NCBI GenBank assembly: GCA_037893225.1
Contig: JAZGUH010000328.1
Coordinates: forward strand, 1,240,001 to 1,304,000
From: Hippasteria phrygiana
Lineage: Eukaryota > Echinodermata > Asteroidea > Valvatida > Goniasteridae
Direction of reading: 5' to 3'
DNA: 64,000 bases
Each line of letters begins with the position of its first letter. The stretch's first letter is position 1. This document shows positions 10,682 to 60,663 of this stretch, in pieces. The notes below the pieces were generated by a model. That model was not told where the DNA came from, searched no databases, and worked only from the letters and a program-made list of their open reading frames with translations. The translations under genes and the position numbers were made by a program.

Positions 10682-10835
10682 GCGCCCACCCGAACAAAGA
10701 TACTGACAATATGGGAGACCACCAACATAGGGCAAGAGAGCTCAGTTGGTAGAGTGCTGGTACAGTATTCCGGAGGTCGCAAGTTCGAATCCCACTCCTG
10801 CAAATTTTCTTTATTCACTTTGAAAAAATTTTGTT
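10682..10835 (+). mobile_element. solo tRNA(Thr)-derived SINE copy
   Basis: Starts GCGCCCACCCGAACAAAGAT, then a tRNA-like head at 10731-10803 with an intact A box (GAGCTCAGTTGG) and B box (AGTTCGAATCC). The anticodon-loop position reads AGT. ATTTTCTTTATTCAC follows, so a T4 terminator lies just after the head, unlike in the tandem array copies. Confidence 0.8.
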
Positions 10836-12022: not shown

Positions 12023-15000
12023 CTGGAACAGGGAGATAAAACTAATGTCTTTTTGGGCTGTGCATCCGAACTGGATACCCAAGTACCCGGTTACCCAAGT
12101 ACCCAGTTACCCAAGTACCCGGTTACCCAAGTACCCGGTTACCCAAGTACCCGGTTACCCAAGTACCCGGTTACCCAAGTACCCGGTTACCCAAGTACCC
12201 GGTTACCCAAGTACCCGGTTACCCAAGTACCCGGTTACCCAAGTACCCGGTTACCCAAGTACCCGGTTACCCAAGTACCCGGTTACCCAAGTACCCGACC
12301 GCTAATGTCAGGAAGCAGTTCCATATTATGGAATCGAGAACCGTAACTGAATTAACATATTACTTCGTAATTTCTCAGACAATAAAAAGGAAAGTTTGTA
12401 AATGTCATTTGTACTGCATACATAGTTCATCCAGAATATGGAGACATGTATAGTGGCTATTAGTCTGGCTGGCTGCACCATGTCACTTGCTATAATGTGA
12501 GACATACACACACCATGTACACAAGCCGCTGATATATTCACTATATGCACTATCTGCAGCATGATCTCTTATTTCAATGTGCTCAAACAATTTCTGGGGC
12601 TGGTAATTTTTTCCTGTCTGTATGTAGAGAGACAGAAAGCTGGAAAAAAATAAAATTTTCAAGGCAAGAAAATGCCTGGCATCCTTGAGGACTAGGGCTT
12701 CAAAGCATTTTGTCAAGCTCAGGAAGTTCACTCAATGTAATGTGAGGAAAGGTATTAAACCTTATGCATGGCGGCCATCTCTGAGATATCTTTTTGTCAT
12801 TCAAATTCTGTAACAATATTTATAAGCACAAAATGTTTACCCATGTCTGTCCAAAAGGTACCAAAGGCATTAGCCTGAAAGATGGCCGCTACGCATAAGG
12901 TCTATGGGGACAGATGGGAATAACTCTAGCAAATCACAGATGTAAAGCAATTGATTACAATTAATATTTTATAAATTGACAGAATTGATCATCTCATGGA
13001 TATTTTATAAATTGATAAAATTGATCATCTCACCTCACGACTCATTACTGACAGGAAGCACCCACCCATTGTACTCGAGGGCTCCATCTTGATGAACTTT
13101 GATGACGACTGCTTCTCCAGCTCTGCTGGGGTGAGTGGCAGGACGGGCGGTATCAGACGGAATGGGTTCTTGCCTGTTGTGTGAGCGTTGATGTACTCTG
13201 TCACTTTGGTGACTACGTTCTCATTTTCTTCTCGGAAGATGGAGTTGGTGGAGTAGACCACAGCCTGGACGCGTGGAACTGTTATGGAATGGTGTTGGAA
13301 AATGAAATTTATTTGAAAGCCTAAAATAAAAAGATGGAGAGACATTGGGTCATTTTTGTTAGGAATTTTCAAACTGAACAAAGAAAACTAGCACGAGCAG
13401 GACTTTAACCTGCGACCTCCGGAATACCATACTGCTGCTCTACCAATCAGTGTTTTTGTTCCGAGGTGGAGGGAGAGGCACTAGCCAGAAGTCTAGAACA
13501 AAGACACTGACAATTTGGGAGACTTCCAACAAAGGGCAAGATAGCTCTACAATCTACGTACAGCACCTGTTTGAAGTTTAAAAAACAAATTCCAAGTCCG
13601 TTAGAAACCGTTCATTTAAGCCACACTGCTATATTTTGCCTTTTTTGAAAATAGAAGTTATCGGCAAAAATAATCCTGACACGAACTGGTTAATACAGTT
13701 TTTCATTTACTCTCTTGCTTGTCAAGGGATTGAAAAGGTTCCAGTTTGTCTTTATAGTGATTCCTGCTTCGGCATTCAACTGCAGTATATTTTGACAAGG
13801 CTACTTTACATTTAAACAGTTGTCAGGTTTTCAATTTCATCTTTTGGCCAAGGCACAACCCTCTTGATAAAATGTCCGAGGTGGGATGATCGACTCACAT
13901 TTCTCAAGCACTGTTGGCAGATAAAAAGCTTATAGCATGCTTCTGATTGTAACAGAACAAATTCTGCGTCAAGGTAACATGAAAGATTATGTTAGGCTGT
14001 TTAAAAGTCCACAGACATGGACCTATTTTGTCGATTTGTCTTACATTTCATAGCTTGTTTGAGCAACTCCATGTGTTTAGACACTAGCATATCCAGCTTG
14101 TCAGTGTCTACTTGTTCCTGGGACAGCTCTCTCAATATACTCGCATCTGTAGACAGAAAAATCAAACCAGTATAATCATTATTCATAAGATGGAATTTGC
14201 GTCGGGGTGATGTACATTCAATATTGGGTTTTGCCCTTCACCGACATATTTTTATAAACACTGTATACTCAGTGTTGTCCCGAGAGATTATTTTGAAAAA
14301 AATCACTCGGGTGGGACTCGAACCCACGACCTCCTGCTTTCTAGTGCAGATGTCTTACCACTCGACCACCGAGCTTGTCGGAGTCGGTTGGCTGGTTTAT
14401 AATCATTTTTTAAAGTTTCTAAAATTAATGAGATCTGAATTATCACAATTTAACATTTTTCTTCCACAAACCAATTTGTGCATGCATCCAAAATTCAGTT
14501 CATCAAAATCTATGAAATGCCAACTAGATACGAGCAGAAAGTCGCTCAATGGCATTCCGAGTTATCAGCAGAAACAACCATTTTTCCATTATGAAGTCAA
14601 CTTTGGAATTTACATGTAACATGTTTACATCTCTAAACACTATGCATTAAAATGCCTCCCGTTTACACAGAAACCACCAGGTGTTCATGAGGTACTTAAA
14701 ATTAATTTTGGATGTACATGCACAGGCATGTACACGTAATAAACTACAACAGTGAGCAGTGGCGACTTGCCATGAGCAATAACAGAATACAAGTACAAAT
14801 TTGCCCTTCACAACTGTTTTATATATTCAACTTACACATTCTGGTATTTGTCAAGCTATTGAGAGTTCAGTAAATGTGCAACCTCACCAGGAATCTGGCT
14901 TTGGACTAAGGGCGTGCATTTACAGGTGGTATGGGTATCAGGTACCCGATTGAATAAAAAACACGAGTACCCGGGTACTCATTAATTAAAGAAAGCCAAT

Positions 15001-18000
15001 CCCAAAAATGAAATCTAAAAAATTGCTGATCATATTGTTTGTAAAGGTTTGTTTTTAATACTACCACATGGGTGCATCAATGCAGCAAGATGCAAAAGTG
15101 TGAAGTGAACTCTTTACCTTTACGGTGTAAACTGCATTTTCGCAAACGTCATATTAAACTTTAATCCGTTTTGCTTTTCCATCTACATTGCTTTTTCATT
15201 TTGAAAATTCCCCACAAATGACATTCAAAAACTTTCTTTTTCCATCGTCTGAGAAATTACTAAGTAATATGTTAATGCGGTTACGGGTACTCGATTCCAT
15301 AATCTGGAACCGGTTCCCGACATTAGCAGTCGGGTAATCGGGCACCCGGTTCGGATACACAGCCCTATATTCAACTTATGCATGCTGGTTACTTGCCACA
15401 TTATTCAGAGTACAGTAAATGAGCAGAAACAACTATTTTTCCATTAGGAAGTCAACTTTGGGATTTACATGTAACATGTTTACACCTCACCAGGAATCTA
15501 GGCTTTGGGCAGAGGAATCACAGATCCTATTTTCTGATGCACTCACCAGCTCCCTCATGAATAATGTATTCCACTGGGTTCGTGACCCCTGACCTGGAAT
15601 CTTCCGGGGTGATCAGAACCACCTTGACATTCTTGAAACGGTTGTCCAGATGTTGGACCTCAAAAAAGTTGTCCTGTAGAAATTTCACATCTGGATAGGC
15701 AAGTCGATCATGGAAAACCAACCACCACCATTACAACACAACGCAACTCACACTTTGAACCAAACATTTTTAAAGTAGGCTTCCAGTTTTGATTTTTCAC
15801 GACACCTTTTGATTCTTTTGATAGTTTTATGTGTTTGTCTTTATGAGCATTTTGTATCCGTGTCTGCAGTACTATATATTTTATTCAGATGTGCAATCAA
15901 TTTCACATTACTTTTTTGCTACTAAATGTTAACGTTTTAACACGTTGACTGCCGACTACGAGTATATTCGTAGTGACTGGTGTACCGGATTCTACGAGTA
16001 TACTCGTAGTGAACCAAACGCATAATTGTTATGGTAATTGAATACTCTGGCATCACCGAAGACGCATCAAATACGCTGCTGGCAGTATGAGTACATCAAT
16101 GTATGGAATGGTTGTGATCGATAGAGACAGCTTGAAAGCAAAGATCATCAGTATGGACGCATGCGCTGTATGTCCAGATTGCACAATGGCAATGTGGTAG
16201 CGCCCTATAAATTATGGCTGGCAGTCAACGTGTTAAATGTGTTCATACTTGTAATGGCCATGTAATTTAACTTGAAGATCACATGATGTGCCAACTAAGT
16301 CAGATTTCAATTCAAATCAAATTCAAATAATATTTAAGCAAAAAAAAACATCCAGTTACTTTTAGCTTATATGAGTCCACCAAAGAGTTCTACTATACTT
16401 TGAAAACTTTGAAAACAATAATAAACTCTATGAAAGTGTGACACGTAACATCAAATTTACTATACAAAGCATCAAATATGATTACCTAACAAAATACAAA
16501 TGGGAAAAAAACTGGCAGACTGAAATATCAATTGGGATCATCTGAAAATAAATTCAGGATTATCTGAGATGGAATTCAGGATTATCTGAGACGGAATTCA
16601 GGATTATCTGAGATAAATTACAGGATTATCTGAGATGGATTTCAGGATTATCCAAAATGCAATTTAGGATTATCACTATGAACATCTAATCCCTTAAATT
16701 CCCATTAAAAGTCCACTTTTCCGTGAAATAAATCCCTAAGGGATGTTTCACGGATATTTACCTGGGGCTTATTGCACTAATCCCGTAAGGGTTTTTTCAC
16801 GGTTTTTTAATGACCCTGGCCACTGAGGATTATCATCGGTCATACATAACGGTAAACAACATCTACCACCCTGAAGATTTCGCCAAACAATCCACAAGGG
16901 AAACTGACTAGGTAAATTTGAATACACCTTCAAAGTGAACAAAGAAACTGGCACGAGCGGGATTCGAACCTGCGACCTCCGGGTTACCGTACCGGCGCTC
17001 TACCAACTGAGCTATCTTGCCCTATGTTGGCGGTCTCCCAAATTGGCAGTATCTTTGTTCAAGTGGGCGCTAGTCAGAAGTCATAAACCCAGAATGCCGT
17101 GTAGCCAGGGATCACACCCAATTTTTACGATACAACCCGGGAAGCGACATTGTGGAGATCACTCAATGAGGATACGACTTTTTAACTTATAATTCGCCAA
17201 ACAATCCACAAGGGAAACTGACTAGGTAAATTTGAATACACCTTCAAAGTGAACAAAGAAACTGGCACGAGCGGGATTCGAACCTGCGACCTCCGGGTTA
17301 CCGTACCGGCGCTCTACCAACTGAGCTATCTTGCCCTATGTTGGCGGTCTCCCAAATTGGCAGTATCTTTGTTCAAGTGGGCGCTAGTCAGAAGTCATAA
17401 ACCCAGAATGCCGTGTAGCCAGGGATCACACCCAATTTTTACGATACAACCCGGGAAGCGACATTGTGGAGATCACTCAATGAGGATACGACTTTTTAAC
17501 TTATAATTCGCCAAACAATCCACAAGGGAAACTGACTAGGTAAATTTGAATACACCTTCAAAGTGAACAAAGAAACTGGCACGAGCGGGATTCGAACCTG
17601 CGACCTCCGGGTTACCGTACCGGCGCTCTACCAACTGAGCTATCTTGCCCTATGTTGGCGGTCTCCCAAATTGGCAGTATCTTTGTTCAAGTGGGCGCTA
17701 GTCAGAAGTCATAAACCCAGAATGCCGTGTAGCCAGGGATCACACCCAATTTTTACGATACAACCCGGGAAGCGACATTGTGGAGATCACTCAATGAGGA
17801 TACGACTTTTTAACTTATAATTCGCCAAACAATCCACAAGGGAAACTGACTAGGTAAATTTGAATACACCTTCAAAGTGAACAAAGAAACTGGCACGAGC
17901 GGGATTCGAACCTGCGACCTCCGGGTTACCGTACCGGCGCTCTACCAACTGAGCTATCTTGCCCTATGTTGGCGGTCTCCCAAATTGGCAGTATCTTTGT

Positions 18001-21000
18001 TCAAGTGGGCGCTAGTCAGAAGTCATAAACCCAGAATGCCGTGTAGCCAGGGATCACACCCAATTTTTACGATACAACCCGGGAAGCGACATTGTGGAGA
18101 TCACTCAATGAGGATACGACTTTTTAACTTATAATTCGCCAAACAATCCACAAGGGAAACTGACTAGGTAAATTTGAATACACCTTCAAAGTGAACAAAG
18201 AAACTGGCACGAGCGGGATTCGAACCTGCGACCTCCGGGTTACCGTACCGGCGCTCTACCAACTGAGCTATCTTGCCCTATGTTGGCGGTCTCCCAAATT
18301 GGCAGTATCTTTGTTCAAGTGGGCGCTAGTCAGAAGTCATAAACCCAGAATGCCGTGTAGCCAGGGATCACACCCAATTTTTACGATACAACCCGGGAAG
18401 CGACATTGTGGAGATCACTCAATGAGGATACGACTTTTTAACTTATAATTCGCCAAACAATCCACAAGGGAAACTGACTAGGTAAATTTGAATACACCTT
18501 CAAAGTGAACAAAGAAACTGGCACGAGCGGGATTCGAACCTGCGACCTCCGGGTTACCGTACCGGCGCTCTACCAACTGAGCTATCTTGCCCTATGTTGG
18601 CGGTCTCCCAAATTGGCAGTATCTTTGTTCAAGTGGGCGCTAGTCAGAAGTCATAAACCCAGAATGCCGTGTAGCCAGGGATCACACCCAATTTTTACGA
18701 TACAACCCGGGAAGCGACATTGTGGAGATCACTCAATGAGGATACGACTTTTTAACTTATAATTCGCCAAACAATCCACAAGGGAAACTGACTAGGTAAA
18801 TTTGAATACACCTTCAAAGTGAACAAAGAAACTGGCACGAGCGGGATTCGAACCTGCGACCTCCGGGTTACCGTACCGGCGCTCTACCAACTGAGCTATC
18901 TTGCCCTATGTTGGCGGTCTCCCAAATTGGCAGTATCTTTGTTCAAGTGGGCGCTAGTCAGAAGTCATAAACCCAGAATGCCGTGTAGCCAGGGATCACA
19001 CCCAATTTTTACGATACAACCCGGGAAGCGACATTGTGGAGATCACTCAATGAGGATACGACTTTTTAACTTATAATTCGCCAAACAATCCACAAGGGAA
19101 ACTGACTAGGTAAATTTGAATACACCTTCAAAGTGAACAAAGAAACTGGCACGAGCGGGATTCGAACCTGCGACCTCCGGGTTACCGTACCGGCGCTCTA
19201 CCAACTGAGCTATCTTGCCCTATGTTGGCGGTCTCCCAAATTGGCAGTATCTTTGTTCAAGTGGGCGCTAGTCAGAAGTCATAAACCCAGAATGCCGTGT
19301 AGCCAGGGATCACACCCAATTTTTACAATTTTTTGTTTGGCGAATTATAAGTTAAAAAGTCGTATCCTCATTGAGTGATCTCCACAATGTCGCTTCCCGG
19401 GTTGTATCGTAAAAATTGGGTGTGATCCCTGGCTACACGGCATTCTGGGTTTATGACTTCTGACTAGCGCCCACTTGAACAAAGATACTGCCAATTTGGG
19501 AGACCGCCAACATAGGGCAAGATAGCTCAGTTGGTAGAGCGCCGGTACGGTAACCCGGAGGTCGCAGGTTCGAATCCCGCTCGTGCCAGTTTCTTTGTTC
19601 ACTTTGAAGGTGTATTCAAATTTACCTAGTCAGTTTCCCTTGTGGATTGTTTGGCGAATTATAAGTTAAAAAGTCGTATCCTCATTGAGTGATCTCCACA
19701 ATGTCGCTTCCCGGGTTGTATCGTAAAAATTGGGTGTGATCCCTGGCTACACGGCATTCTGGGTTTATGACTTCTGACTAGCGCCCACTTGAACAAAGAT
19801 ACTGCCAATTTGGGAGACCGCCAACATAGGGCAAGATAGCTCAGTTGGTAGAGCGCCGGTACGGTAACCCGGAGGTCGCAGGTTCGAATCCCGCTCGTGC
19901 CAGTTTCTTTGTTCACTTTGAAGGTGTATTCAAATTTACCTAGTCAGTTTCCCTTGTGGATTGTTTGGCGAATTATAAGTTAAAAAGTCGTATCCTCATT
20001 GAGTGATCTCCACAATGTCGCTTCCCGGGTTGTATCGTAAAAATTGGGTGTGATCCCTGGCTACACGGCATTCTGGGTTTATGACTTCTGACTAGCGCCC
20101 ACTTGAACAAAGATACTGCCAATTTGGGAGACCGCCAACATAGGGCAAGATAGCTCAGTTGGTAGAGCGCCGGTACGGTAACCCGGAGGTCGCAGGTTCG
20201 AATCCCGCTCGTGCCAGTTTCTTTGTTCACTTTGAAGGTGTATTCAAATTTACCTAGTCAGTTTCCCTTGTGGATTGTTTGGCGAATTATAAGTTAAAAA
20301 GTCGTATCCTCATTGAGTGATCTCCACAATGTCGCTTCCCGGGTTGTATCGTAAAAATTGGGTGTGATCCCTGGCTACACGGCATTCTGGGTTTATGACT
20401 TCTGACTAGCGCCCACTTGAACAAAGATACTGCCAATTTGGGAGACCGCCAACATAGGGCAAGATAGCTCAGTTGGTAGAGCGCCGGTACGGTAACCCGG
20501 AGGTCGCAGGTTCGAATCCCGCTCGTGCCAGTTTCTTTGTTCACTTTGAAGGTGTATTCAAATTTACCTAGTCAGTTTCCCTTGTGGATTGTTTGGCGAA
20601 TTATAAGTTAAAAAGTCGTATCCTCATTGAGTGATCTCCACAATGTCGCTTCCCGGGTTGTATCGTAAAAATTGGGTGTGATCCCTGGCTACACGGCATT
20701 CTGGGTTTATGACTTCTGACTAGCGCCCACTTGAACAAAGATACTGCCAATTTGGGAGACCGCCAACATAGGGCAAGATAGCTCAGTTGGTAGAGCGCCG
20801 GTACGGTAACCCGGAGGTCGCAGGTTCGAATCCCGCTCGTGCCAGTTTCTTTGTTCACTTTGAAGGTGTATTCAAATTTACCTAGTCAGTTTCCCTTGTG
20901 GATTGTTTGGCGAATTATAAGTTAAAAAGTCGTATCCTCATTGAGTGATCTCCACAATGTCGCTTCCCGGGTTGTATCGTAAAAATTGGGTGTGATCCCT

Positions 21001-24000
21001 GGCTACACGGCATTCTGGGTTTATGACTTCTGACTAGCGCCCACTTGAACAAAGATACTGCCAATTTGGGAGACCGCCAACATAGGGCAAGATAGCTCAG
21101 TTGGTAGAGCGCCGGTACGGTAACCCGGAGGTCGCAGGTTCGAATCCCGCTCGTGCCAGTTTCTTTGTTCACTTTGAAGGTGTATTCAAATTTACCTAGT
21201 CAGTTTCCCTTGTGGATTGTTTGGCGAATTATAAGTTAAAAAGTCGTATCCTCATTGAGTGATCTCCACAATGTCGCTTCCCGGGTTGTATCGTAAAAAT
21301 TGGGTGTGATCCCTGGCTACACGGCATTCTGGGTTTATGACTTCTGACTAGCGCCCACTTGAACAAAGATACTGCCAATTTGGGAGACCGCCAACATAGG
21401 GCAAGATAGCTCAGTTGGTAGAGCGCCGGTACGGTAACCCGGAGGTCGCAGGTTCGAATCCCGCTCGTGCCAGTTTCTTTGTTCACTTTGAAGGTGTACC
21501 CTGAAGATTTCACGGTGTTTCAATTAAGATAACGGTATTAGGTAACTGCCTTGACCTTTACGACCCCTAGTACAATGTAAACACTTTTGCTGGTGGAACA
21601 AGTAAACAAGCAGGGAGCTTTCTGTAAGTCTTGAATAGATTGTATTTGTGTGTTCAAATCCAATGTGTGAGACTTTCATTTTTTTGACTTACAATAAGTT
21701 CAGGTCAAATCAGAATTTGGTGATAGATTCCGAAACGTGGCGCCGGCGCAATTTGATTTTTTCGTAACTATTTGTTGCAAAACTTAAGTTTTTTTTATAT
21801 CATCTTCAAACAATATATTATGGCCCGCCATCAATATTGGGAAACAGCGTAGTCTAAGCTTAGTCTGCGGATATCTGGATCAAAGCCTTTTCATGGTTCC
21901 CGCCACCAGCCAGAGCTGAGGTGGCTAATTTGCATGTGAATGAAACTGCTTAACAATAGGCCCCTTTAATTCTTATTACAATGGTGCTGTCTGCGGGGTC
22001 TGCAGAGTCAGCAGAGTACGCTGATTGTATACTTTATTTAGAACGTTTTAATATATTTTTCATCTTATCCCAGATTTACTGACAGCTTGTCCATTATTCT
22101 AAACTTATACTTAAAACCCAAAAAATAGTTTTCTCCCCTATTTATTTTTCTGCGAGTTGCTGAATCACATATTTATTTTTGTAATTGAATTAGCATTTTA
22201 AAAGAATGATCCCGAACCGAAAACAAAATGTTGGCTAAAACTTCTAGAGTTTTTAACCACAAGATTTCGTCAGATAAGAAAAAAAACATAGAAGGCCACT
22301 AGTACGTTATATAATAATCGGTATGTTCGATGTGACCAGAGAATTTCCCTTGTTCCCCTTTTAAAGATGGACAATTTTTAATATTTTTAATGAAACCTTC
22401 AGGATGACTTTCAAATACTGGTAGTCGAGCTCCACCTGGCTGGATTTGTGCAATACTTCGATCTCTCCATCACCTCGCTGATGGTGATAATGCCCGCTGG
22501 ATAAATGTACCGGTACTTCCCAGGCCAGATGCCGCGTGTGGTTGGCATGGAATATTTTTTGTTTTATTTTCGCAGGCTTTGCAGTCCAGGGGCGGCCTAC
22601 ACAAAGAACCTCTGGAGCTAAACCCATTGTATACATTTTGTTACATAGTATTACAATGTATAAATAATCTATACCTGGCAAAAGTTGAGCTGTCAATCAC
22701 TTTAAAAGGTTTCAGGGCTCTTGGGGTGGAGGATATTTTATTTCAGCCCGCCCATTAGACTAGCGACGGGTACCAGCGAATTGTGTAGATACGTACCAAG
22801 AGTCATCATTCCGCGAGATGAGAATCAGCTGATTTATTTAGAGCTACAGGCAGGAGGCACGAACCACGTGCGAGCAGCCCCAAGTGCAGAGAAGCATTTC
22901 TCAATGAACGGTTGAAATGGATACGCCCACTAATTTGCATAGATTTAAATATTGCTTAGTGTACAAAAAAACACATTTTGAGAAGTTTTAAGGGTCAAAT
23001 TATGACAATTACACCGGGGGTAACCAAAAGGGTAACAACAATAGTTTAAGTTTTGAAAACAACTTCTTTGCAATACAATCGGAATAATTTGGTCAAATTT
23101 AGGTGAAAATTATCATTTTCAAGCTGCTACCATGGATAGGAAATACACCATTTTTGTAGACTATAAATAGATCGCCTGTCTCATGTTATATGTGGTGATT
23201 TCACTGCAAAGTTAAGGGCAGAGTGCCGGCGCTGCCCGCCATGTTTGGGGTTCATGGCTTAATACGTCCCCCGCAAGCATCCCGCTGTGTAGTACCTACC
23301 AAAATACTGTGTTATTTATAATGATGTCAAAACCAGTCAGAATTGGGCAGGAACGGAGGACCTTCTACAGCTTTTTTTCTTTTACAGATTCACCCATACG
23401 TAATAAGCAATTAAATTGTTATTAATAAATACTTTTACAATATATAGGCCTATGACAACACAATGACAACGCAAAAAAGTATGCCTCAACGCTTTACGTT
23501 AGCGTTTCGTTGTTCATTTTTTCCCCCGACAAGCATGCAAGGTTTGCAAGTTCTGAATGCAGTATTAGCCTTCCTTATTCATAAGACGTATTTTCTTGGC
23601 AACAATTAATAGCGCTCGGTCGGTTGGGCAAGCTCAAACCTGGAGTCAATAAACTCTCCATTGTAAACATTCTAAACACTGGAGGGCCAGGCAGCAGACT
23701 TGCCAATCTCAACCACAAGATTATAATACGGGAGTTTTCACGGATTCCACAACACCGTGAAAAACCTAACGGTACACAATCTGGCACTGGCATGGCTAGT
23801 GGCTGAAGTCACCTGATTTTCACGGACGGCTAAACAAAGGACTTTTCTAAGGGTGTTTTCACGGACTCCTAATCTCCCTAATATGTTGAAAAAACCGTGA
23901 CAATTTTGGCTCACGGTAAATTAAGGGAAAAGTGGCTCTTTAACGAATTTTTAAGGGATGAAGATGTTCATAGTGTATCCGAGATGGAAAACAGAAATTT

Positions 24001-27000
24001 GGGAAACGAAAAATCATTCTCTTCCAGATATTCAGGCCAAAAAAGGGATACTGCGTATGCCGAGCTTCTTAGCATTGGCCATCAGTTGCTCACTGTGCTC
24101 TTCATTTTTGACTCCAAAGGCGTAGACCGTACAGTGTTCTTGACTGGTTAAAGTCGCTAGATGGGACGTTGTCCAACCGGAACCGGTGTAAATGTGGATG
24201 ATGTCATCTCCTTCATTCAAGAGAGATTTGACGGAGTGAGGCCCAAGACAACAGCTCTTTTCCTGAGAAAGACAATAACAAATGGAATCTGAGGAGACAT
24301 CAATGATTTAACTAAATCTTAATATTTAAATCAAAAAATTAGCAAGTTCTTTCTCAAAGGCAAATGACAGAGTACAAGAAACAAACATGTAGGGAACACA
24401 CATGCATGAGGGGGTGGGTGGAGAAACACAAAAGAGGGATGCAAAGGAGCCTGGCAGTGGATAGACATCAAAGGGAGGGGAAAGGATCAGGACAGCCAGG
24501 AAGAAAGGAACAAAGAAGTGTGGTTAGGGTAAGGATGAAGGAGGGGAGGGATTAAGATGAAGGATGAAGCTGGGGAAATGGGACAAAGGAGTGTGGTGAA
24601 GGGGGGGGGGGGGTTAAATGGAAGGTGGTAATAGGGCAAGAGAAGGAACAAAGGGAAGTGGCAATTATAAACAGGAAATGGAAAGACAACCCCATGTGGC
24701 CAAGTGGGCAAGAGACCCCAAGAGGGTATGCCAGGAGGATAATCTGTAAAAAAAATGACAATGGGGGAAAATTAAGAGTTAATCATTCCCTTCCTGGATG
24801 TTGAGACCATGTGGTTCAATAGTCCGAAGACGTTTCATCCACATTTTCTCTCTGCTAAGGCGAACTGAGTCCTTGCGGTGGCCAAGTGATTCTATGCCCT
24901 GTAGAATCATATCAGAAATGGAATGGTTAGGCAAGTTGAAGTGATGACCAACAGGGGTGTCCATTTTCTTGGTGTTCACAGTCGATCGATGGCCATAGAA
25001 ACGCTTTTTGAGCGTGTTCTTGGTCTCCCCGACATACTGGATACCACAAACCTTGCAAGAAAAGAGATATATGACATTAGAGGTGTTGCAAGTATTGTTG
25101 CCATTGGTTCTGTGAGTAGTGCCAGATGAATGGCCAGAAAAGGAGTCAGACTCCTGCATGTGAGTCTGGCAAACAACACACCTGGAATCGCACTTAAAAG
25201 TACCATGCTGTATGGGAGGGGATGCAGCCAAGGTGGGGACCTCGGCTCGAACAATCAGGTCTCGTAGATTGCGGGGGCGCCTATAAGCCAATACTGGGTT
25301 GTCAGGGGCGGCAATAATATTTAATTCTGACACCAGATTTCAGGGGCCTGGGGATGCACCTTATTGGTAGTTTAAAACTGATGCAAGTTGGCTCATAATT
25401 TTTTTGGCTGAACAAACACAAGGCCTTCACACACGACAGCCTCTCGACTCGGGGTGAAGTCAAAATCAAACCAGGACGAACCCCTGATGGGCCGCCCTGG
25501 GCTGAATCTCAATTTTTCAACTCCACATTCAACCTCGCATTGTGTCATACATGTACTTGTGTCAAGTTCCACCTGGGGCAAACTCACCCCTGCTTATATT
25601 ACAAAACTGTTTTCAACCCGGGCAAGTGTTTCAACCAAGAATGAGAATGTCAACCCTGGTCTGGAAACTCTGGTGTGCAAATAAAGGGCCTTAAATGGGG
25701 GGAGGTGAGTTGGTCTCAGCGACAGCGGAAGTCAACTTACCCCGCCTGGCTTACGGGTCTGAAAATTGGGATAATTTCTCCGGAATCTGTTGAAGAATTA
25801 TCCTCTATCTAGATCTGGGCCCAGGAAAACTGTAAGGGTGGTAGGGTTGGCAATTCAAAATGTCGCCAACCACTTGTGATCGTAACATTTTTCCCAGAGT
25901 GGCTTTTAGCCTTGCATTGGGTGATTTCTATTAACCCTGCAGTGTGGCATGACAATATACACGCACTGTTACACCACGGTGACCTACTTAACAAAACAGC
26001 GGCATGGCACAAAGCCGAGTTAACAACAAATTTGCTATCCTGGTGATGTGCAACCTGGGAGATCAAAATATGTTACCCCATACCTACCTCCCATTCCCCT
26101 ATAACAGTTACAAGTAAAACCCTTATGACCCACACTAACAGCAAGACGTGTACTGCACATACCTGAATGATTAGGTTTCCCTTTCTAACAAGATAACTGT
26201 CTTCCAGTGCAGGTCTGTTCTGTGCATCAAAGACCAGGACGTTGGGACACTGGGAGTCCACGGTGACGCTGTACTCTCCCAGTGCGTTGATGGAGGTGAC
26301 CTTCTTGTAACCATCTTCAGTCAGCTGCTCAATCACCTCTTCAACGCTAAAGGATGAGTAGAAGATGAGAGAATAGGAAAGAGCCAGGTTAGAGTATCAA
26401 TCAAATTAGAGGCAAATTCCACCCATTGCGGTGGAATCGTGTAAACGGAGCTGGTGACACATTGCCCAATCACATTAGTTATAAATTTGGAGGCGGAACA
26501 TGAAAAGTCCGAAAGGAACAAAAATTACTGCACCAAATGCCTACAGTGGAAACAAGTCAGCCATACGGAACATCAAATGTTTGAAACTGGAAATACAGTT
26601 TTCATTTACAACTTTTGTGAGCTTTTGCAGTCAACCATATGAACACAAACAAGCTAATTCAAGAAATCAGAAGAATAACTATTTTTCCTGTATATGATAT
26701 TTTTCAGGGTTTTGGTCTTAAAACTTTGAATATAAATGTAACGGTTGACCACAATAGAAAAAATCCACTTCAAAATAAGATAGACTGCCAATCAACCGTT
26801 TTTGACGTTTTCAAATGGTACTAATTCCATAAGTAAACTTCTCCCCCATCAGCCAATCCTAGCCTAATAAGTTTGAGACAGGATCGATTAAAAGGCTGGC
26901 AATTATACCTCAGCCTTGTTGACTTTTACTCATGTTGACTTTACCCTTGTTGACTTTTACTCATTGCTGCATGGGTATTTGCAAAGCCGCAGCACTATAT

Positions 27001-39700: not shown

Positions 39701-41230
39701 AAGGACAGACTACTGGTAAATAAAGAGAAGGGTTTATTATTATTTGTAAGCAATACTTTTGACCTTTTGTAATAGCAATTGAATTCACTTGCCTGTGTGG
39801 TTACAAGGCTTTGTTAGAGGTGTAGTTCGGGTATTTTGTCTAAACTTGTGCATTATGCACCATTCACTGAATGCTTTCTATTCTACCGGAGCTTAGTTGA
39901 AATCCCCAAACATTAAAAAAAAATTCTTCAGTTCTTGCACCTCCACCCCCAAACAAAGGCAATTTGGCAGACCGGAAACGGGCCAAGACAGCTCAGTTGG
40001 TATAGCACCAGTGCAGTATTCCAGAGGTCACAGGTTCAAATCCCACTCTTGCCAGTTTTCTTTGTTCACTTTGAAAATTTAATGATTTTTTTTATTAAAT
40101 TCATATTTTTTGTGGGGGGGGGGGGGAGAAAATCTGTCAAACAATTATGACAACAATGTAAGCAACTGTAATGTCAACTGAAAAAAAACAGCACTTGCAA
40201 CAAAAAGTGCACTATTTAATAACTATTTCAGATAAAAATTTATTCAATTATTAAATCCTCTTCCTGAAAATGAAAAAGAATGTATGAAACACATGGTCTT
40301 CCATGAAATGCATACAAAATAGCAGGATTTTGTATAATTTACACTGCAGCTGTTTTCCTTGTAGTCAGTCAGTAATCAGTAATTGTTTTTCAAGAAAAAA
40401 TCAAACATACACAATGAACATCTAACAAAAGAAAAACGGCGCACTAACAATGAAAATCCATTGTTAACTTGGCACTGAATCCATTGTTACTTGTTCACAG
40501 TGACAAGGGTCTGTTCTCTGATAAAACTGGGAAAAAATGTTCATGTGTAAACATATCTTGTTGCCCAACTGCACAGGACATCTATGCCATTATTTGCACT
40601 GTGATATAGTGCAAGATTTGACATGGTCTATAGGTCATCACGCACAGAATTCATATTTTATCATTTTCCTACTTCATAATGTAAAATTTACTAGCCATTA
40701 TTCTGCTCTTCTTAAAATGTATTTGAGAGAGAAATGCGTAAAAACAACACACAAAATGAAAGTATACATGTCCTAGTAAACAAACACTTGCTGTCATAGC
40801 AACATGGAAGTACTACATGGATCTTGGACGGATAAATGTAAATATTACGTTTAATTAAAAGTTACTTACACTTTAGTGCATCGAACGCCAGATCATAAAC
40901 TTTTCTCTTGGCTCTTTCATCCTTGATAGCTGTCAGCTTTGGTGGTTCTTTCCCCGCCCTCAGATCTACATCCAGCACCAGTTTGTCTGCCTTGTTGGCC
41001 GGCCGTAAACTCCCAAAAACTTGGCTCGCGTAGTGGTATATGACTTGGTTGCACCCCTGGCCGTGGTCCGAGCTTTCCAAGATGATAGGGATGCTGTCGG
41101 ATGCGACCTCACACCCCTTGGTGCTCATCGTGCTCGGGATGCTAGTCTTTCTGTGAGTGCTCGGCATTGAGCTGTACGCCTTAACCATCCCCGGTACCCT
41201 GCCAGCATAGTGTTGACTCAGAAGTGCCAT
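11725..41230 (-). CDS. nsun7: NSUN7-like protein, nine exons placed, 3' end not found
   Basis: Member of the NOL1/NOP2/SUN RNA m5C-methyltransferase family; the vertebrate orthologue is known for a role in sperm motility. Exons, in transcript order: 40870-41230, 30055-30113, 29296-29579, 26163-26346, 24052-24262, 15547-15690, 14045-14146, 13034-13278, 11725-12022. They total 1888 nt with every phase compatible, giving about 629 residues colinear with my recollection of human NSUN7 (for example PLYAW-like PIYAWVNQL, a DKLDMLVSKHMEL segment and ARAAAKGL near the C-terminus). The SAM-motif region is degenerate (TGSGWTTSHLA, residues 322-332). Motif IV reads PEDSRSG (395-401) and motif VI reads YSTNS (457-461), so neither NSUN cysteine is present. 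The tail after residue 570 is Lys/Ser-rich. Exon 9 ends in phase 1 at a GTATGT donor, so at least one more exon exists; I did not find it. Introns hold a tRNA-SINE palindrome, a Penelope fragment and a LINE. Confidence 0.9.
12054..12410 (-). mobile_element. hAT-like MITE containing an expanded 16-bp minisatellite
   Basis: Begins GGGCTGTGCATCCGAACTGG about 30 bp from the nsun7 exon 9 acceptor. The distal part (ACCGCTAATGTCAGGAAGCAG to AATTTCTCAGACAATAAAAAG) is colinear with the element at 14910-15366. The expansion sits exactly where the 15-kb copy has a single ACCCG-type motif. Confidence 0.7.
12070..12299. repeat. 16-bp minisatellite, about 14 copies
   Basis: Unit ACCCAAGTACCCGGTT repeated head to tail with almost no variation (one copy has CAGTT). 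The long Pro/Tyr/Thr-repeat open frames over it are by-products of the repeat. Confidence 0.95.
12759..12901. mobile_element. MITE with ACCTTATGC ends, family F, copy 1
   Basis: ACCTTATGCATGGCGGCCATCT at the left pairs with AGATGGCCGCTACGCATAAGG at the right. The internal ATCTTTTTGTCATTCAAATT is shared with 50920-51028. Confidence 0.75.
13034..13278 (-). CDS. nsun7: nsun7 exon 8 (motif VI region, catalytic cysteine replaced)
   Basis: Acceptor CCATAACAG, donor GTGAGA. Encodes FPRVQAVVYSTNSIFREENE; NSUN enzymes have TCS where this reads TNS (ACC AAC TCC on the coding strand). Downstream are FRLIPPVLPLTPAE and MEPSSTMGGCFLSVMSRE, strongly NSUN7-like. Confidence 0.9.
13383..13565 (-). mobile_element. 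degenerate fold-back copy of the tRNA(Thr) SINE
   Basis: A tRNA-like head in reverse orientation (about 13391-13455) is followed by the family's pre-head segment in forward orientation (GACAATTTGGGAGACTTCCAACAAAGGGCAAGATAGCTC, up to 13555). The arrangement is thus inverted, as in the array at 16.9 kb and the copy at 60.1 kb. It lies in nsun7 intron 7. Confidence 0.65.
14045..14146 (-). CDS. nsun7: nsun7 exon 7
   Basis: Acceptor TGTCTACAG, donor GTAAGA. Completes an Asp codon and encodes ASILRELSQEQVDTDKLDML and SKHMELLKQAMK. This helical block precedes motif VI in the family. Confidence 0.87.
14301..14375 (-). mobile_element. tRNA-like sequence, second tRNA-derived SINE family
   Basis: On the minus strand: GCTCGGT acceptor, A-box-like GGTCGAGTGGTAAGAC, T arm GTGGGTTCGAGTCCCAC with a perfect B box. 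The anticodon arm has an 8-nt loop and there is no long variable arm, so a working tRNA(Ser) is unlikely. It is followed by TTTTT, a Pol III stop. Intronic in nsun7. Confidence 0.6.
14910..15366. mobile_element. hAT-like ACCCG MITE, most complete copy
   Basis: Left CTAAGGGCGTGCATTTACAG with GGGTATCAGGTACCCG; right CCCGGTTCGGATACACAGCCC. It shares the distal part with 12300-12410 and 6700-6782. Lies in nsun7 intron 6. Confidence 0.55.
15547..15690 (-). CDS. nsun7: nsun7 exon 6 (motif IV region, cysteine lost)
   Basis: Acceptor CCTATCCAG, donor GTGAGT. Encodes VKFLQDNFFEVQHLDNRF and then KVVLITPEDSRSGVTNPVEY. The PEDSRSG stretch sits where NSUN enzymes carry PCSG; there is no Cys. Confidence 0.88.
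15937..16236. mobile_element. TTAA-flanked MITE with CACGTTGACTGCC ends
   Basis: TTAACACGTTGACTGCC at the left and GGCAGTCAACGTGTTAA at the right. Inside are two copies of CTACGAGTATA(T/C)TCGTAGTGA. Non-coding; nsun7 intron 5. Confidence 0.8.
16530..16680 (+). repeat. 26-bp degenerate tandem repeat
   Basis: About six units of the type GGAATTCAGGATTATCTGAGA, the last ones diverged (CAATTTAGGATTATCA). Confidence 0.8.
16690..16867. repeat. CACGG-type repeat next to the array
   Basis: Contains AATCCCTAAGGGATGTTTCACGGA and AATCCCGTAAGGGTTTTTTCACGG, related to 23740-23935 (GGGAGTTTTCACGG..., AAAACCGTGA). Probably a dispersed repeat; its structure was not resolved. Confidence 0.4.
16882..19326 (-). 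repeat. left arm: eight units, tRNA-like heads on the minus strand
   Basis: The 73-nt tRNA-like heads lie at 16949-17021 and every 314 bp after that: 17263, 17577, 17891, 18205, 18519, 18833 and 19147 (low ends). Fold: acceptor GGCAAGA/TCGTGCC with one mismatch, D stem GCTC/GAGC, anticodon stem CCGGT/CCCGG, T stem GCAGG/CCCGC, discriminator A. The anticodon loop ACGGTAA reads GGT (Thr) but has C instead of U at position 33. That and the acceptor mismatch argue against a working tRNA. The overall sequence is closest to tRNA(Thr)(AGT). Confidence 0.9.
19336..21497 (+). repeat. right arm: seven units, tRNA-like heads on the plus strand
   Basis: Heads at 19516-19588 and every 314 bp: 19830, 20144, 20458, 20772, 21086 and 21400 (starts). 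Outermost, the arm stops at CACTTTGAAGGTGT, before the unit's usual 3' tail. The left arm, by contrast, ends exactly at the tail terminus (GTGGATTGTTTGGC in sense). Confidence 0.9.
21512..24051. other. remainder of nsun7 intron 5
   Basis: No exon recognised between the array and exon 5. A CACGG/CCGTGA-containing repeat lies at about 23735-23935. Several open frames (for example near 22.4-22.7 kb and 23.6-23.8 kb) have no family similarity. Confidence 0.45.
24052..24262 (-). CDS. nsun7: nsun7 exon 5 (degenerate SAM-binding motif)
   Basis: Acceptor TTTCTCAG; the donor GTATCC is weak but gives the correct phase. Encodes HSVKSLLNEGDDIIHIYTG, then SGWTTSHLA where active NSUN enzymes have the A-P-G-G-K-T-type motif I. 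The donor is immediately followed by the intron containing the SINE palindrome. Confidence 0.88.
24340..25333 (-). mobile_element. 5'-truncated Penelope-like element
   Basis: GIY-YIG-coding end plus a purine-rich 3' region down to AGCAAGTTCTTTCTCAAAGG. The same 3' region, without the coding part, recurs at 43991-44475. No reverse-transcriptase domain is left. Inserted in nsun7 intron 4, in the same orientation as the gene. Confidence 0.8.
24779..25333 (-). pseudogene. Penelope-like C-terminal GIY-YIG endonuclease domain
   Basis: An intact 184-codon open segment. An RPRNLRDLIVRA motif and Cys pairs (FKCDSRCVVCQTHM) come first. The GIY-YIG core follows: NVIYLFSCKVCGIQYVGET, with LKKRFYGHR and HHFNLPNH downstream, then EKMWMKRLRTIEPHGLN. 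This order of motifs is characteristic of the endonuclease that follows the RT domain in Penelope-like retroelements. Truncated upstream, with no start context, so it is a remnant and not a host gene. Confidence 0.85.
25334..26162. other. nsun7 intron 4, proximal part
   Basis: No further exon or complete repeat recognised. Confidence 0.45.
26163..26346 (-). CDS. nsun7: nsun7 exon 4
   Basis: Acceptor TCCTTTAG, donor GTATGT. Joining to exon 3 yields a Ser codon followed by VEEVIEQLTEDGYKKV, aligned to the SPEEV..L..RGY.KV block of NSUN7. Ends at NLIIQ in phase 0. Confidence 0.9.
26347..29295. other. nsun7 intron 3
   Basis: Contains the dispersed block shared with 2943-3005 (about 27074-27140), a ~31-nt A tract at 27675-27706 and a pair of direct 19-mers GCACATTTTGAACGGGCAC (near 28851 and 29092) about 240 bp apart. 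A repeat tail with CTGTCCGTAATTCGATTATT lies at 28650-28830. Confidence 0.45.
29296..29579 (-). CDS. nsun7: nsun7 exon 3
   Basis: Acceptor CCAACAG, donor GTGAGT. Encodes the block from PDENHGVIMVILCDML through a LARNRIKFQARSVECLLPE segment to YAWVNQLQN, in the same order as vertebrate NSUN7. 284 nt, phase 0 to 2. Confidence 0.9.
29820..30046. mobile_element. Tc1/mariner-type MITE, copy 2, abutting a splice donor
   Basis: CAGTTATGCCCAAAATTATT ... AATTTGGGGCACGACTG with TA on both sides (29818-29819, 30047-30048). The right end lies at intron position +9 from the exon 2 donor of nsun7. Confidence 0.82.
30055..30113 (-). CDS. nsun7: nsun7 exon 2 (59 nt)
   Basis: Acceptor TTTCTGCAG, donor GTAAGTT. 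It completes the Tyr codon from exon 1 and encodes QALLEDMLVDSGYYGYDTV, matching the short conserved block after ALKY in NSUN7. A Tc1-type MITE starts only 8 nt into the following intron. Confidence 0.88.
30114..30591. other. nsun7 intron 1, 3' part
   Basis: Intronic AT-rich sequence; nothing else recognised. Confidence 0.4.
30592..31252. mobile_element. 661-bp MITE with CTGTCCGCACTGGACTTTTT ends
   Basis: AAAGCC(C)TGTCCGCACTGGAC at the left and GTCCAGTGCGGACACGGCTTT at the right. Further internal copies of AGTGCGGACAGT are present. Non-coding. Confidence 0.75.
31525..31657. mobile_element. MITE with CTGNCAAAATCCAACAC ends, copy 1
   Basis: CTGCCAAAATCCAACACCA at the left and GTGTTGGATTTTGACAG at the right. 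Related to 52839-52993; a more diverged relative is at about 53800-53910. Confidence 0.7.
31658..32247. other. nsun7 intron 1, no exon recognised
   Basis: Short open frames only. A Tc1-type end (CAGTTGTGGTCAAAAGTTTACATA) lies just upstream of this tract at 31440, without a partner. Confidence 0.4.
32248..32518. mobile_element. TA-flanked MITE with GGGGAGATGGGGGTTAG ends
   Basis: GGGGAGATGGGGGTTAG at the left and CTAACCCCCATCTCCCC at the right form perfect 17-bp inverted repeats bordered by TA. Internally GGGGTAA.TTGGAACAC recurs. Confidence 0.85.
32861..33276. mobile_element. long palindromic MITE interrupted by a TTAA element
   Basis: The left arm (AATAAATGAAAGGTTTGCGG ... CTCAATTGAGAGAAT.ATGGTTCT ... 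CCAGAGGT) and right arm pair over about 90 bp. The right arm is split by the family A MITE at 33003-33228. Confidence 0.8.
33003..33228. mobile_element. TTAA-flanked MITE, family A, copy 3 (nested)
   Basis: TTAACCCCTTGAGTACAG ... CCGTACGCAAAGGGTTAA, with GTGCAGCCAAGCGTA and GACATCATCCGGCCTGGTGG inside. Inserted in the palindromic MITE. Confidence 0.85.
33325..33715 (+). repeat. degenerate tandem repeat of TGTTGTATTTTGTTGGATNYAGCAGG
   Basis: At least six diverged occurrences (33350, 33410, 33495, 33545, 33640, 33680), each ending in a (T)AGCAGG-like word, separated by 45-90 bp of unrelated sequence. Not a simple satellite. Confidence 0.55.
33880..33930. repeat. (CCCCCAC)n low-complexity tract
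   Basis: C-rich stretch of CCCCCACC words ending in a C-run. Confidence 0.85.
36022..36477. mobile_element. MITE nested in the LINE, GACCGGCTCTGC ends, copy 1
   Basis: The element occupies 36027-36468 or a few bases more. TGACCGGCTCTGCAAAAAGG at the left pairs with CCTTTTTGCAGAGCCGGTCA at the right. ATATG stands on both sides and the LINE frame resumes at YVDD right after it. The second copy, 63546-63990, has the same ends with CCCGC. Confidence 0.85.
36851..37050. mobile_element. MITE nested in the LINE, GCAATCGTGGACC ends, with 6-bp TSD, copy 1
   Basis: ACTCAC at 36851-36856 and 37045-37050 flanks 188 bp with inverted ends (GGTGCAATCGTGGACC and GGTCCACGATTGCCGGC). Removing it restores the LINE frame through ...RPLTEYATQVW. 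A related copy in reverse orientation lies at 47561-47748. Confidence 0.85.
37511..38035. other. nsun7 intron 1, no exon recognised
   Basis: AT-rich after the LINE tail; nothing recognised. Confidence 0.4.
38036..38100 (+). repeat. truncated telomere-like-ended MITE
   Basis: TTAACCCTCCAGGGCATGTTTG...CATACTTTGCCACA, one half of the family seen complete at 44123-44270. Cut by the next element. Confidence 0.65.
38101..38443. mobile_element. MITE with AAGGCATTTTCACAC ends
   Basis: AAGGCATTTTCACACTA at the left pairs with GTGTGAAAAGGCCT at the right. Repeated ACACGGGTCGAACT and TTTTCACACTA words inside. Confidence 0.6.
38812..39348. mobile_element. hAT-like MITE rich in ATTCGAATA
   Basis: TTCGAATA / TATTCGAA words cluster at both ends. 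The right end ATATTTGGGACAGCCCTAGC matches the AGGGCTGTCCC-type ends common among hAT MITEs. Confidence 0.5.
39982..40066 (+). mobile_element. solo tRNA(Thr)-derived SINE copy
   Basis: tRNA-like head 39982-40054 (A box CAGCTCAGTTGG, B box GGTTCAAATCC, anticodon position AGT) followed by GTTTTCTTTGTTCACTTTG, again with a T4 run after the head. Confidence 0.8.
40870..41230 (-). CDS. nsun7: nsun7 exon 1 (coding start)
   Basis: Begins at the first ATG of the open frame at 41230 (MALLSQHYAG...) and ends at a GTAAGT donor (40869-40864). The segment VIYHYASQVFGSLRPANKA matches the conserved NSUN7 N-terminal block, and the exon ends in DLAFDALK before a split Tyr codon. A CAG at 41243-41241 could be an acceptor, so a non-coding 5' exon further upstream is likely. 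Confidence 0.85.
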
Positions 41231-42882: not shown

Positions 42883-42926
42883 AAACCATAAATTCATCAA
42901 ACAATCCACAAGGGAAACCATAAATT
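42883..42926 (-). mobile_element. 20-bp micro-insertion of the SINE 3' terminus with 12-bp TSD
   Basis: AAACCATAAATT at 42883-42894 and 42915-42926 flanks CATCAAACAATCCACAAGGG, the exact terminal 20 bases of the 314-bp unit's tail (minus-strand sense). An extreme 5' truncation, consistent with target-primed reverse transcription. Confidence 0.8.
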
Positions 42927-57938: not shown

Positions 57939-58721
57939 ATGGCACGCCAAAGCGGCATTTATTCAACCCTACACAGCAACTGTCAACATTACAAAATACA
58001 CCACAATTTTTTTTTTTATTATACAACAGCAAGATTTACCGTTCAACATTAAAAAAAAAAACATGGCAACATTTTAAAAATATGTGTCAACATTTCTTTT
58101 GTTCACTTGCTTAAAAACATGTGCCAACACGGTCAAAACGTATGTCAAAATTGTAAAAAAGATATGCCAACCCGCTGAAAAACATATGTCAACATTGTAC
58201 AAAAATATGTGCCAACCCGGTGAAAAATGTATGCCAACATTAAAAAAGAACAGTAGTCAAGATTTACGTCAGAAATAATTGTCAACATTGTTTTAAAACG
58301 TTATGCCCTAACTTTGTGAAACATATCTGTCAAAAATGCGCCAACCCGCTGACAAATATTGCAACTTTTCCAAAAATATTTGTCCAGATTCACGTGAAAA
58401 GTACCAACTCGGTGAAAAAAATATTTCAACATTGTAATAAAAAAAAACATGTGCCAACCGGCTGAGAAATATATCAGAAGATTCACGTGAGAAATACATG
58501 TCAACATTGTCAAAAATATGCGGCAACCCGGTGAAAAACATGTCAACATTCACGTGACCACCTCCAAGTCCATTAAACTGGTTCCCAGTCCGGATTGATA
58601 GGCACATAACAGCCTATGCGCCAACCAGTTTAGGGGCCGTCCATAAAGTACGTACGCACGAAATGCCGACTCCCCCCCCCCCCCCCCCCCCCTGTACGCA
58701 TGGCCTACGCAGTGGCCCCAT
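57939..58721. mobile_element. 782-bp composite element, copy 1
   Basis: Begins TATGGCACGCCAAAGCGGCA and ends GTACGCATGGCCTACGCAGT. The middle (58080-58560) is a degenerate tandem of ATATGTCAACATTGTNAAAA and ATGTGCCAACCCGGTGAAAA, about 54 bp per double unit. Next to the right end is TTTAGGGGCCGTCCATAAAG, a motif common at transposon ends in invertebrates. The inverted second copy is at 61881-62656. Confidence 0.8.
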
Positions 58722-60070: not shown

Positions 60071-60663
60071 CTAAATACAATTAATTCGTCAAACAATCCA
60101 CAAGGGAAACTGACTAAGTAAATTTTTAACACATTTTCAAAGTGAACAAAGAAACTGGCAGGAGCGGGAATTAAACCTGCAACCTCCGGGTTACCGTACT
60201 ACCAACTTTGTTCACTTCTTTGTTCACTTTGAAAATGTGTTCAAAATTTACCTAGTCAGTTTCCCTTGTGGATTGTTTGACGAATTATAAGTTAAAAAGT
60301 CGTATCCTCATTGAGTGATCCCCACAATGTCGCTTCCCAGGTTGTATCGTAAAAGTGGGTGTGATCCCTGGCTATACGGAATTCTGGGTTTATGACTTTT
60401 GACTAGCGCCCACCCGAACAAAGATGCTGACAATTTGGGAGACCGCCAACAGAGGGCAAGATAGCTCAGTTGATAGAGCACCGGTACGGTAACCCGGAGG
60501 TCGCAGGTTCGAATCCCGCTCCTGCCAGTTTCTTTGTTCACTTTGAAATTGTGAAGAAAATCATGTTAGTGGTTTTGAAACTATGGCGGCCATGCGGCAC
60601 ATCCGCGCGTCGCCTAGCTACGGTGACCCGCAAAAGCTACAGGACTGAGCTAAATACAATTAA
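60071..60663. mobile_element. fold-back dimer of the 314-bp tRNA(Thr) unit with 14-bp TSD
   Basis: CTAAATACAATTAA stands at 60071-60084 and 60650-60663. Inside, 60085-60205 is the tail plus half a head on the minus strand. After a junction at ACTTTGTTCACTTC, a tail joins directly to a complete unit on the plus strand (head 60459-60531). A further 110 bp, not found in the array unit, runs to the right border. The tRNA head is followed by GTTTC, without T4, as in the array. Confidence 0.85.

Follow-up and report, generated by a model that had tools for sequence, protein, structure and literature searches.

We propose that array A, a palindromic insertion in a stretch of genomic DNA from the asteroid echinoderm Hippasteria phrygiana, was generated by reverse transcription of a small tRNA-related element that was copied repeatedly from both ends of its target site. 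The stretch (hereafter the window) comprises 64,000 nucleotides of assembly GCA_037893225.1, contig JAZGUH010000328.1, positions 1,240,001 to 1,304,000. In array A, two blocks of head-to-tail 314-bp units lie in opposite orientations between the two copies of one target-site duplication (TSD). Array A looks like one of a class of multimeric insertions, some of whose members are very young, of an element resembling a short interspersed nuclear element (SINE). The reading that we regard as probable, though by no means assured, is that insertion of the SINE-like element proceeded by target-primed reverse transcription (TPRT), which began at both target ends and used a head-to-tail template, most likely a 314-nt circle. 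That the family as such moves via a 314-nt RNA circle, with two primers and up to eight laps giving inverted arrays in one step, is a bolder proposition on which we are nearly evenly divided, leaning slightly to doubt. We take much the same view, just short of even confidence, of its corollary that a family moving by such circles would use no known ribozyme and would seed satellite-like arrays.

Array A and its insertion site

The components of array A and of the repeat that hosts it are listed below, with positions in the unit numbered from the first base of its tRNA-like domain.

16674..16867, no strand: left part of the host repeat, which is young and high-copy (start approximate, 16671-16678)
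16868..16881, no strand: left TSD copy, ACCCTGAAGATTTC, present as a single copy at the empty site in six of six host-repeat paralogues
16879..19326, minus strand: block of 7.8 head-to-tail 314-bp units, outer (3') end at 143 (site II), inner end at 208
19327..19332, no strand: central AATTTT, which matches the unit on neither strand in register
19333..21498, plus strand: block of 6.9 head-to-tail 314-bp units, inner end at 132, outer (3') end at 99 (site I)
19516..19588, plus strand: tRNA-like domain of the reference unit, one of 15 (ARAGORN: Thr, GGT; Rfam tRNA, 57 bits)
21498..21511, no strand: right TSD copy, ACCCTGAAGATTTC, 14 bp
21512..22600, no strand: right part of the host repeat, with 98-100% identity at no fewer than 39 other places (best 40 of 668 candidates)

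Tandem Repeats Finder confirmed the 314-bp period of the two blocks, and there are zero differences among all of the complete units, six on the plus strand and seven on the minus strand; both this identity and the unit number are assembly-based, and polishing may have homogenized the units. The array described in the initial annotation is real in its essentials, with eight minus and seven plus tRNA-like domains (15 in total), identical 314-bp units and a single 14-bp TSD. The TSD and the element have TTC in common at the left border and a single A at the right, and among the inverted arrays that were read array A has the highest unit number.

Array A interrupts its host repeat (16674-22600, possibly extending further to the right) about 200 bp from the start of the repeat, with homology setting in near 16674. 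In six of the six other repeat copies that were read, the left and right flanks meet directly around one ACCCTGAAGATTTC, and identity is 99.7-100% across 304-311 bp. This comparison, which uses paralogous copies of the host repeat rather than alleles, shows array A to be one insertion with a TSD, as had been supposed, and provides the expected empty site with one 14-mer. In a search of the assembly for an allelic copy with the left flank, the matches listed represent another repeat (query 35-338), and the left part of the host repeat is not among them.

The same paralogues bear on the possibility that array A is an assembly artefact, in the form of a false palindrome or of collapsed or expanded repeats. 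Identical repeats and palindromes are hard to assemble and array A is known from the assembly alone, but its TSD is matched by an empty site in all six of the paralogues read, and the same design recurs on many contigs with different TSDs and breakpoints. We consider an artefact very improbable indeed.

The TSD finder detected TSDs of at least 11 bp around 23 of 41 loci versus 0 of 400 control placements, where the 41 loci include the window copies A to F (B to F are described below) and leave out L079, L094 and L109. Copy B falls outside the 23, its 14-bp repeat being separated from the element by 100 bp, and so does L088, for which a 12-bp repeat was detected separately. The TSDs are mostly 11-15 bp long, and that of L076 consists of 17 exact bases in a TAAA-rich stretch. 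A nick motif was also considered as a marker of first versus second strand and was set aside, the signal being weak and the numbers small.

The repeat unit and its copies across the assembly

The tRNA-like domain matches Rfam RF00005 at 57 bits in all 15 units of array A, and tRNA matches are present in 15 of the 15 further loci that were scanned with Rfam. It has a mismatched acceptor pair and, in our own reading of the loop, the base before the anticodon is C; we infer that the domain is probably a promoter-type remnant and not a tRNA gene. The unit had been described as tRNA-headed, which does not hold, as a conserved leader of about 160 nt precedes the domain and the homology of seven relatives stops at 147-155. 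Because this leader makes the tRNA-like domain internal, we refer to the element as SINE-like and not as a standard tRNA SINE. The unit is non-coding, its longest repeated stop-to-stop frame (94 aa) running antisense across the tRNA-like part, and matches to it are dispersed over many contigs of the assembly.

Only tRNA reaches the Rfam gathering score within the window, and otherwise array A gives only weak, chance-level rows at E values up to 10. A hammerhead ribozyme was found neither in the array A unit (E up to 10) nor in the 15 further loci. The sense strand of the unit contains no TTTT; the same is true of 9% of resampled sequences and of 35 of 373 window stretches, and in view of these figures its absence was discounted as weak evidence for read-through.

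Relatives of the unit were found by protein-level searches through spurious reading frames, and 33 of 48 hits align to the unit at E up to 0.01, through the tRNA-like domain into the leader. In two relatives, P0110 and P0116, the homology continues over a head-to-tail joint whose length is similar, and a third, P0117, forms an inverted pair flanked on each side by LQINP, which reads as a putative TSD of about 15 nt. Nucleotide patterns run against viral contigs and other genome contigs returned no relatives, the last four patterns being matchless, and 42 stretches from viral contigs gave isolated 18-27-base matches and one 58-base match at 74%, in the tRNA part of L030.

A search of the assembly with the unit, in which the best 40 of 1964 candidates were scored, led to 38 further places that were read with their flanks, all of which hold at least 1.3 units in total. 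This sample favors long copies because full-unit matches rank first, and the share of single-unit copies is not to be inferred from it. Other 314-bp arrays, envisaged in the initial annotation, do exist, and their TSDs and inversion points were tabulated at these places.

At 11 loci the units within an array differ by 0-0.41%, whereas majority sequences compared between arrays differ by 2.7-3.9%; a few non-majority variants per array are common to all of its units. There is no differing position at all in L073, L080, L081 and L084, and one each in A, L090 and L106. Older arrays have larger internal differences, as expected from later mutation, and L077, L091 and others are without the contrast. 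The near-identity of units in young arrays, with arrays about 3% apart, therefore means that each array had one template. The earlier view that array A was mobilized recently is supported. The joint between units (135-165) keeps its length in 75 of 82 crossings, a frequency similar to that of neighboring windows, and L106 has the same two-base variant at both of its joints, a variant that L099 shares; the joint was thus copied from the template and not made anew by RNA-to-RNA jumps. Among the places listed, there is no whole-unit match to array A above 98% outside array A itself, and shorter pieces match at 99-100%.

Identical units could also be the outcome of tandem growth in place, where a short inverted insertion with its TSD would have been enlarged by unequal exchange or slippage inside each block. 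It had been argued that a TSD outside all of the units excludes later local duplication, but this argument is invalid because growth may occur inside one insertion, and the TSD stays outside whatever happens within it. One inverted insertion is in fact found on three contigs (L122, L123 and L124) with 4.6, 3.6 and 3.6 units, its long aligned pieces being 97.9-99.6% identical; the three may represent haplotypes or a segmental duplication. Elsewhere in the assembly, 31 or more units of the family follow one another head to tail in one orientation (L121, G000 C892:481000-490900), in a run which continues past both ends of the stretch read, has a mean unit difference of 1.1%, and is a satellite-like array of the SINE-like unit. 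However, the 13 complete units of array A, in both orientations, have zero differences and would need separate and very fast growth in both blocks, and the other young arrays are clonal multimers at their own sites. We therefore judge growth in place to be improbable as the origin of array A.

Two end sites and the template

The outer (3') ends of the copies are concentrated at two places in the unit, with 52 of 54 falling in site I (90-110) or site II (136-153), which together make up 12% of its length, whereas only 5 of 56 inner (5') ends lie in these intervals; the sites proper span 94-109 (I) and 136-152 (II). These counts leave out L094 and L109 (same insertion as L088), L079 (inside the C892 run), E and L085, and copy B is entered by its element ends; with E and L085 added, 54 of 58 outer ends lie in the two intervals. 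Single-orientation loci end at site I in 18 cases, at site II in six and elsewhere in two (L092 at 73 and L098 at 85). The inverted arrays with two tails, a set compiled by hand, pair site I with site II in 14 of 14 cases, where 38% would be expected with 75% of ends at I (P about 1e-6), and together with E and L085 they make up 16 inverted loci among the 42 counted. The left border of array A had been placed at the 3' terminus of the family and does lie at a recurrent end, position 143 in site II. The right border had been taken to be internal to a unit, yet position 99 is in site I, the commoner of the two recurrent 3' ends, and the rule of one end at I and usually II at the other is absent from the initial annotation. 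The notion that the tail consists of two copies of one module, such that sites I and II are equivalent, was not supported, 358 of 2000 shuffles scoring just as well.

A prediction for new inverted loci was written before a B-type query (best 40 of 3044 candidates) returned them. The query gave ten new inverted places, not counting five copies of the B arrangement and L091. Six of the ten were read, and in every one of them one end is at site I, the other is of the II type, and the TSD measures 13-15 bp. Their raw II-side ends are at 144, 147, 131, 156, 148 and 155, or at about 140, 142, 130, 152, 143 and 140 when the bases shared with the TSD are subtracted. Two places, C544 and C45, have the look of I/II pairs in the match table only; for copies that were not read, the roughly 50-nt margin of the table may give the impression of a site II end. 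A recurrent 5' end at 27 in the B-type search was dismissed, since the margin of about 50 nt that the tool adds to each candidate produces it. The 22 inverted copies read include no I/I or II/II pair, and neither C494 nor C715 is such a pair by the match table.

In the mechanism that we propose, a helper reverse transcriptase would nick both strands of the target and extend both ends on the element RNA, a form of TPRT with bidirectional (twin) priming in which site I is the start for one primer and site II usually that for the second. Each primer would be extended over as many as about eight unit lengths of the template, whose most likely form is a single 314-nt RNA circle that is reverse-transcribed in rolling-circle fashion, and the inner ends, where copying stopped, would then be joined. 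In array A this would amount to 7.8 laps for the minus block and 6.9 for the plus block, and its left primer, which ends in TTC, could pair with GAA at 141-143. The bases shared by TSD and element at site II differ among copies A, B and F, as expected if microhomology guides annealing. A template with many equally usable copies of each site should frequently give I/I pairs; that none were found suggests a template with a single site I, as would be the case for a one-unit circle or for a linear multimer with one 3' end at I.

The initial annotation had attributed array A to TPRT of a head-to-tail RNA with twin priming. The head-to-tail template, the inversion and the 3-nt microhomology are upheld, but classical twin priming is not, because both blocks of array A copy the same 314 nt repeatedly and the template must therefore have been either circular or a long multimer. 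In outline the twin-priming idea is correct, and the question of the template and the two-site rule are new.

The earlier model with the two sites added becomes one of twin priming on one long linear head-to-tail RNA, transcribed from a genomic tandem array, in which site I, as the 3' end of the RNA, would prime the first strand and the second target end would anneal at site II, the A/U-rich joint. Having one 3' end per RNA explains why I/I and II/II pairs are missing, and E, L085, C494 and C715, each of which combines site I with another point, are also in line with it. The run of at least 31 units at C892 demonstrates that long arrays exist, and RNA polymerase III (Pol III) could read through an array whose sense strand has no TTTT, a property shared by the resampled sequences and window stretches mentioned above. 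Such a linear RNA would, however, need a homogeneous donor array for each insertion, whereas the units at C892 differ by 1.1% and the young arrays include four with no differing position and three with one each. No whole-unit match to array A above 98% was listed elsewhere (best 40 of 1964 candidates), the 3' end of the RNA would need processing at about 97, and six single-orientation copies end at site II. We regard the linear template as a serious alternative but a rather unlikely one, and the circle is somewhat more likely because there are several identical unit lengths and no listed whole-unit match to A above 98%.

There are also a number of points that weigh against the circle and against the end rule on which it draws. 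The circle is putative, and no ribozyme family was found in the unit or in the 15 other loci, where Rfam gave tRNA and one histone stem-loop only. The fold of the unit does not go beyond that of shuffles (z about -1). A linear multimer ending at site I, with the second primer mostly at the A/U-rich positions 141-152, would yield I/II pairs too, and the C892 run could be a source of such multimers, its units being 1.1% apart. The donor of the array A unit may have been missed, as the best 40 of 1964 candidates were scored, and the insertion on three contigs indicates that unit number can change after insertion. The intervals for sites I and II were set after the first loci had been seen, and E (I/13) and L085 (I/159) are inverted and not I/II. 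The raw site II ends at C84 (131), C385 (156) and C191 (155) are outside the set interval; correction for the TSD moves C385 to about 152 and C191 to about 140 and leaves C84 still outside. C494 (I and about 294) and C715 (I and about 22), both from the match table only, fail the prediction as worded. The target motif is weak, and the 14-bp repeat of copy B stands 100 bp beyond its site I end.

Other copies in the window and comparison with known systems

Five further copies of the unit are present in the window, as follows.

60071..60663: copy B, minus 146 to 30, then plus 76 via a full unit to about 98; 14-bp repeats CTAAATACAATTAA at 60071-60084 and 60650-60663
42883..42926, minus strand: copy F, a piece of 20-28 bp from the site II end (145-118), flanked by 12-bp repeats AAACCATAAATT
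10682..10826, plus strand: copy C, older, single orientation, 266 to 95; TSD not found
39960..40081, plus strand: copy D, older, single orientation, 291 to 99; TSD not found
13365..13547: copy E, older, inverted, minus 96 to 16 and plus 276 to 13, its ends being I and internal; TSD not found

In copy B about 100 bp of other sequence (60548-60649) separates the plus part from the outer 14-bp repeat. The arrangement is found at five other places (C424, C576, C726, C28 and C654) in nearly the same geometry and with 97-99% matches, and because of this recurrence copy B probably represents one event, rather than several, that was multiplied later with a host repeat or as a composite. Two copies, E (13365-13547) and L091, are without about 281/286 to 13/14 of the unit, which is the end of the leader and the start of the tRNA-like domain, possibly by a recurrent skip at the tRNA-like fold.

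Other features of the window include a second tRNA-like element (14303-14375, minus strand; ARAGORN tRNA-???) with little likeness to the unit outside the tRNA fold, and an inverted pair of about 800 bp at 88% identity (57938-58720 and 61880-62655), possibly the arms of a large element. The remains of a long interspersed nuclear element lie at 34306-37382 (plus strand), with a reverse transcriptase domain at 35421-35879. On the minus strand, 24779-25339 holds a GIY-YIG frame of Penelope-like type, for which the best match with a name comes from Apostichopus japonicus (72% identity), in keeping with an echinoderm host; the frame is of a kind that is a possible helper for the SINE-like element. 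No known hammerhead or other ribozyme was found near this open reading frame.

A search of open-licence PubMed Central by title and the start of the abstract found no description of multimeric inverted tRNA-SINE insertions among the best-ranked papers. The tRNA-derived SINEs are non-coding and dispersed, with a tRNA-like domain, variable 5' ends, recurrent 3' ends and TSDs of 11-15 bp, and their typical layout is a single unit with the tRNA-like domain at its 5' end. The family described here resembles them in its tRNA-like domain (a presumed Pol III promoter), in the size of its TSDs, and in being non-coding and dispersed, but differs in having the tRNA-like domain behind a leader, in its multimeric insertions and in its two alternative 3' ends.

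The Helenus group of terminal-repeat retrotransposons in miniature (TRIMs) is likewise non-coding and, according to the portion of the source available, has a tRNA-like sequence within a long terminal repeat (LTR), the repeat measuring up to about 320 bp (PMC10886601). The same portion describes two LTRs round an interior with a primer-binding site and polypurine tract, and TSDs of 4-5 bp (PMC10886601). The present elements share with Helenus a non-coding nature and a tRNA-like sequence in the repeat unit, but their units are joined directly to one another and their TSDs are at least 11 bp; identity with Helenus or other TRIMs is ruled out on these two grounds.

Twin-primed L1 insertions, as set out in the part of the source consulted, have inverted halves inside one TSD and microhomology where the target end anneals, and few 5' inversions are reported there for trans-mobilized elements (Kojima, 2010; PMC2912911). 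Array A has the inversion inside one TSD and the microhomology in common with them. Unlike in twin-primed L1, both of its blocks span more than six full units of the same sequence, rather than non-overlapping parts of one unit-length RNA. In addition, the second end of the inverted copies lies at a preferred site, and 16 of 42 loci are inverted, as opposed to the few given for elements mobilized in trans in that part of the source (PMC2912911).

The animal non-LTR retrozymes are non-coding tandem units of about 150-450 bp, without LTRs and with TSDs, if present, of more than 4 bp, and their RNA circles are proposed to be reverse-transcribed to multimers, as stated in the available sections of two reports (PMC7229834, PMC7761336). 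The 314-bp tandem units and the TSDs longer than 4 bp of the present family are similar, whereas its tRNA-like domain and the hammerhead that was not found set it apart, and inverted two-block insertions with a two-site end rule are not described in those sections (PMC7229834, PMC7761336). Retrozymes are thus the precedent for small RNA circles that are proposed to be copied as multimers. The site I/usually-II rule makes the choice between a circular and a linear template testable, and the host repeats supply empty sites by which insertions can be dated and genotyped. If our reading is right, the multi-lap copying of a small RNA in target-primed integration is recorded directly in the genome, with unit number, start sites and stop sites readable insertion by insertion, and SINEs, retrozyme-like circles and the birth of satellite DNA would be linked.

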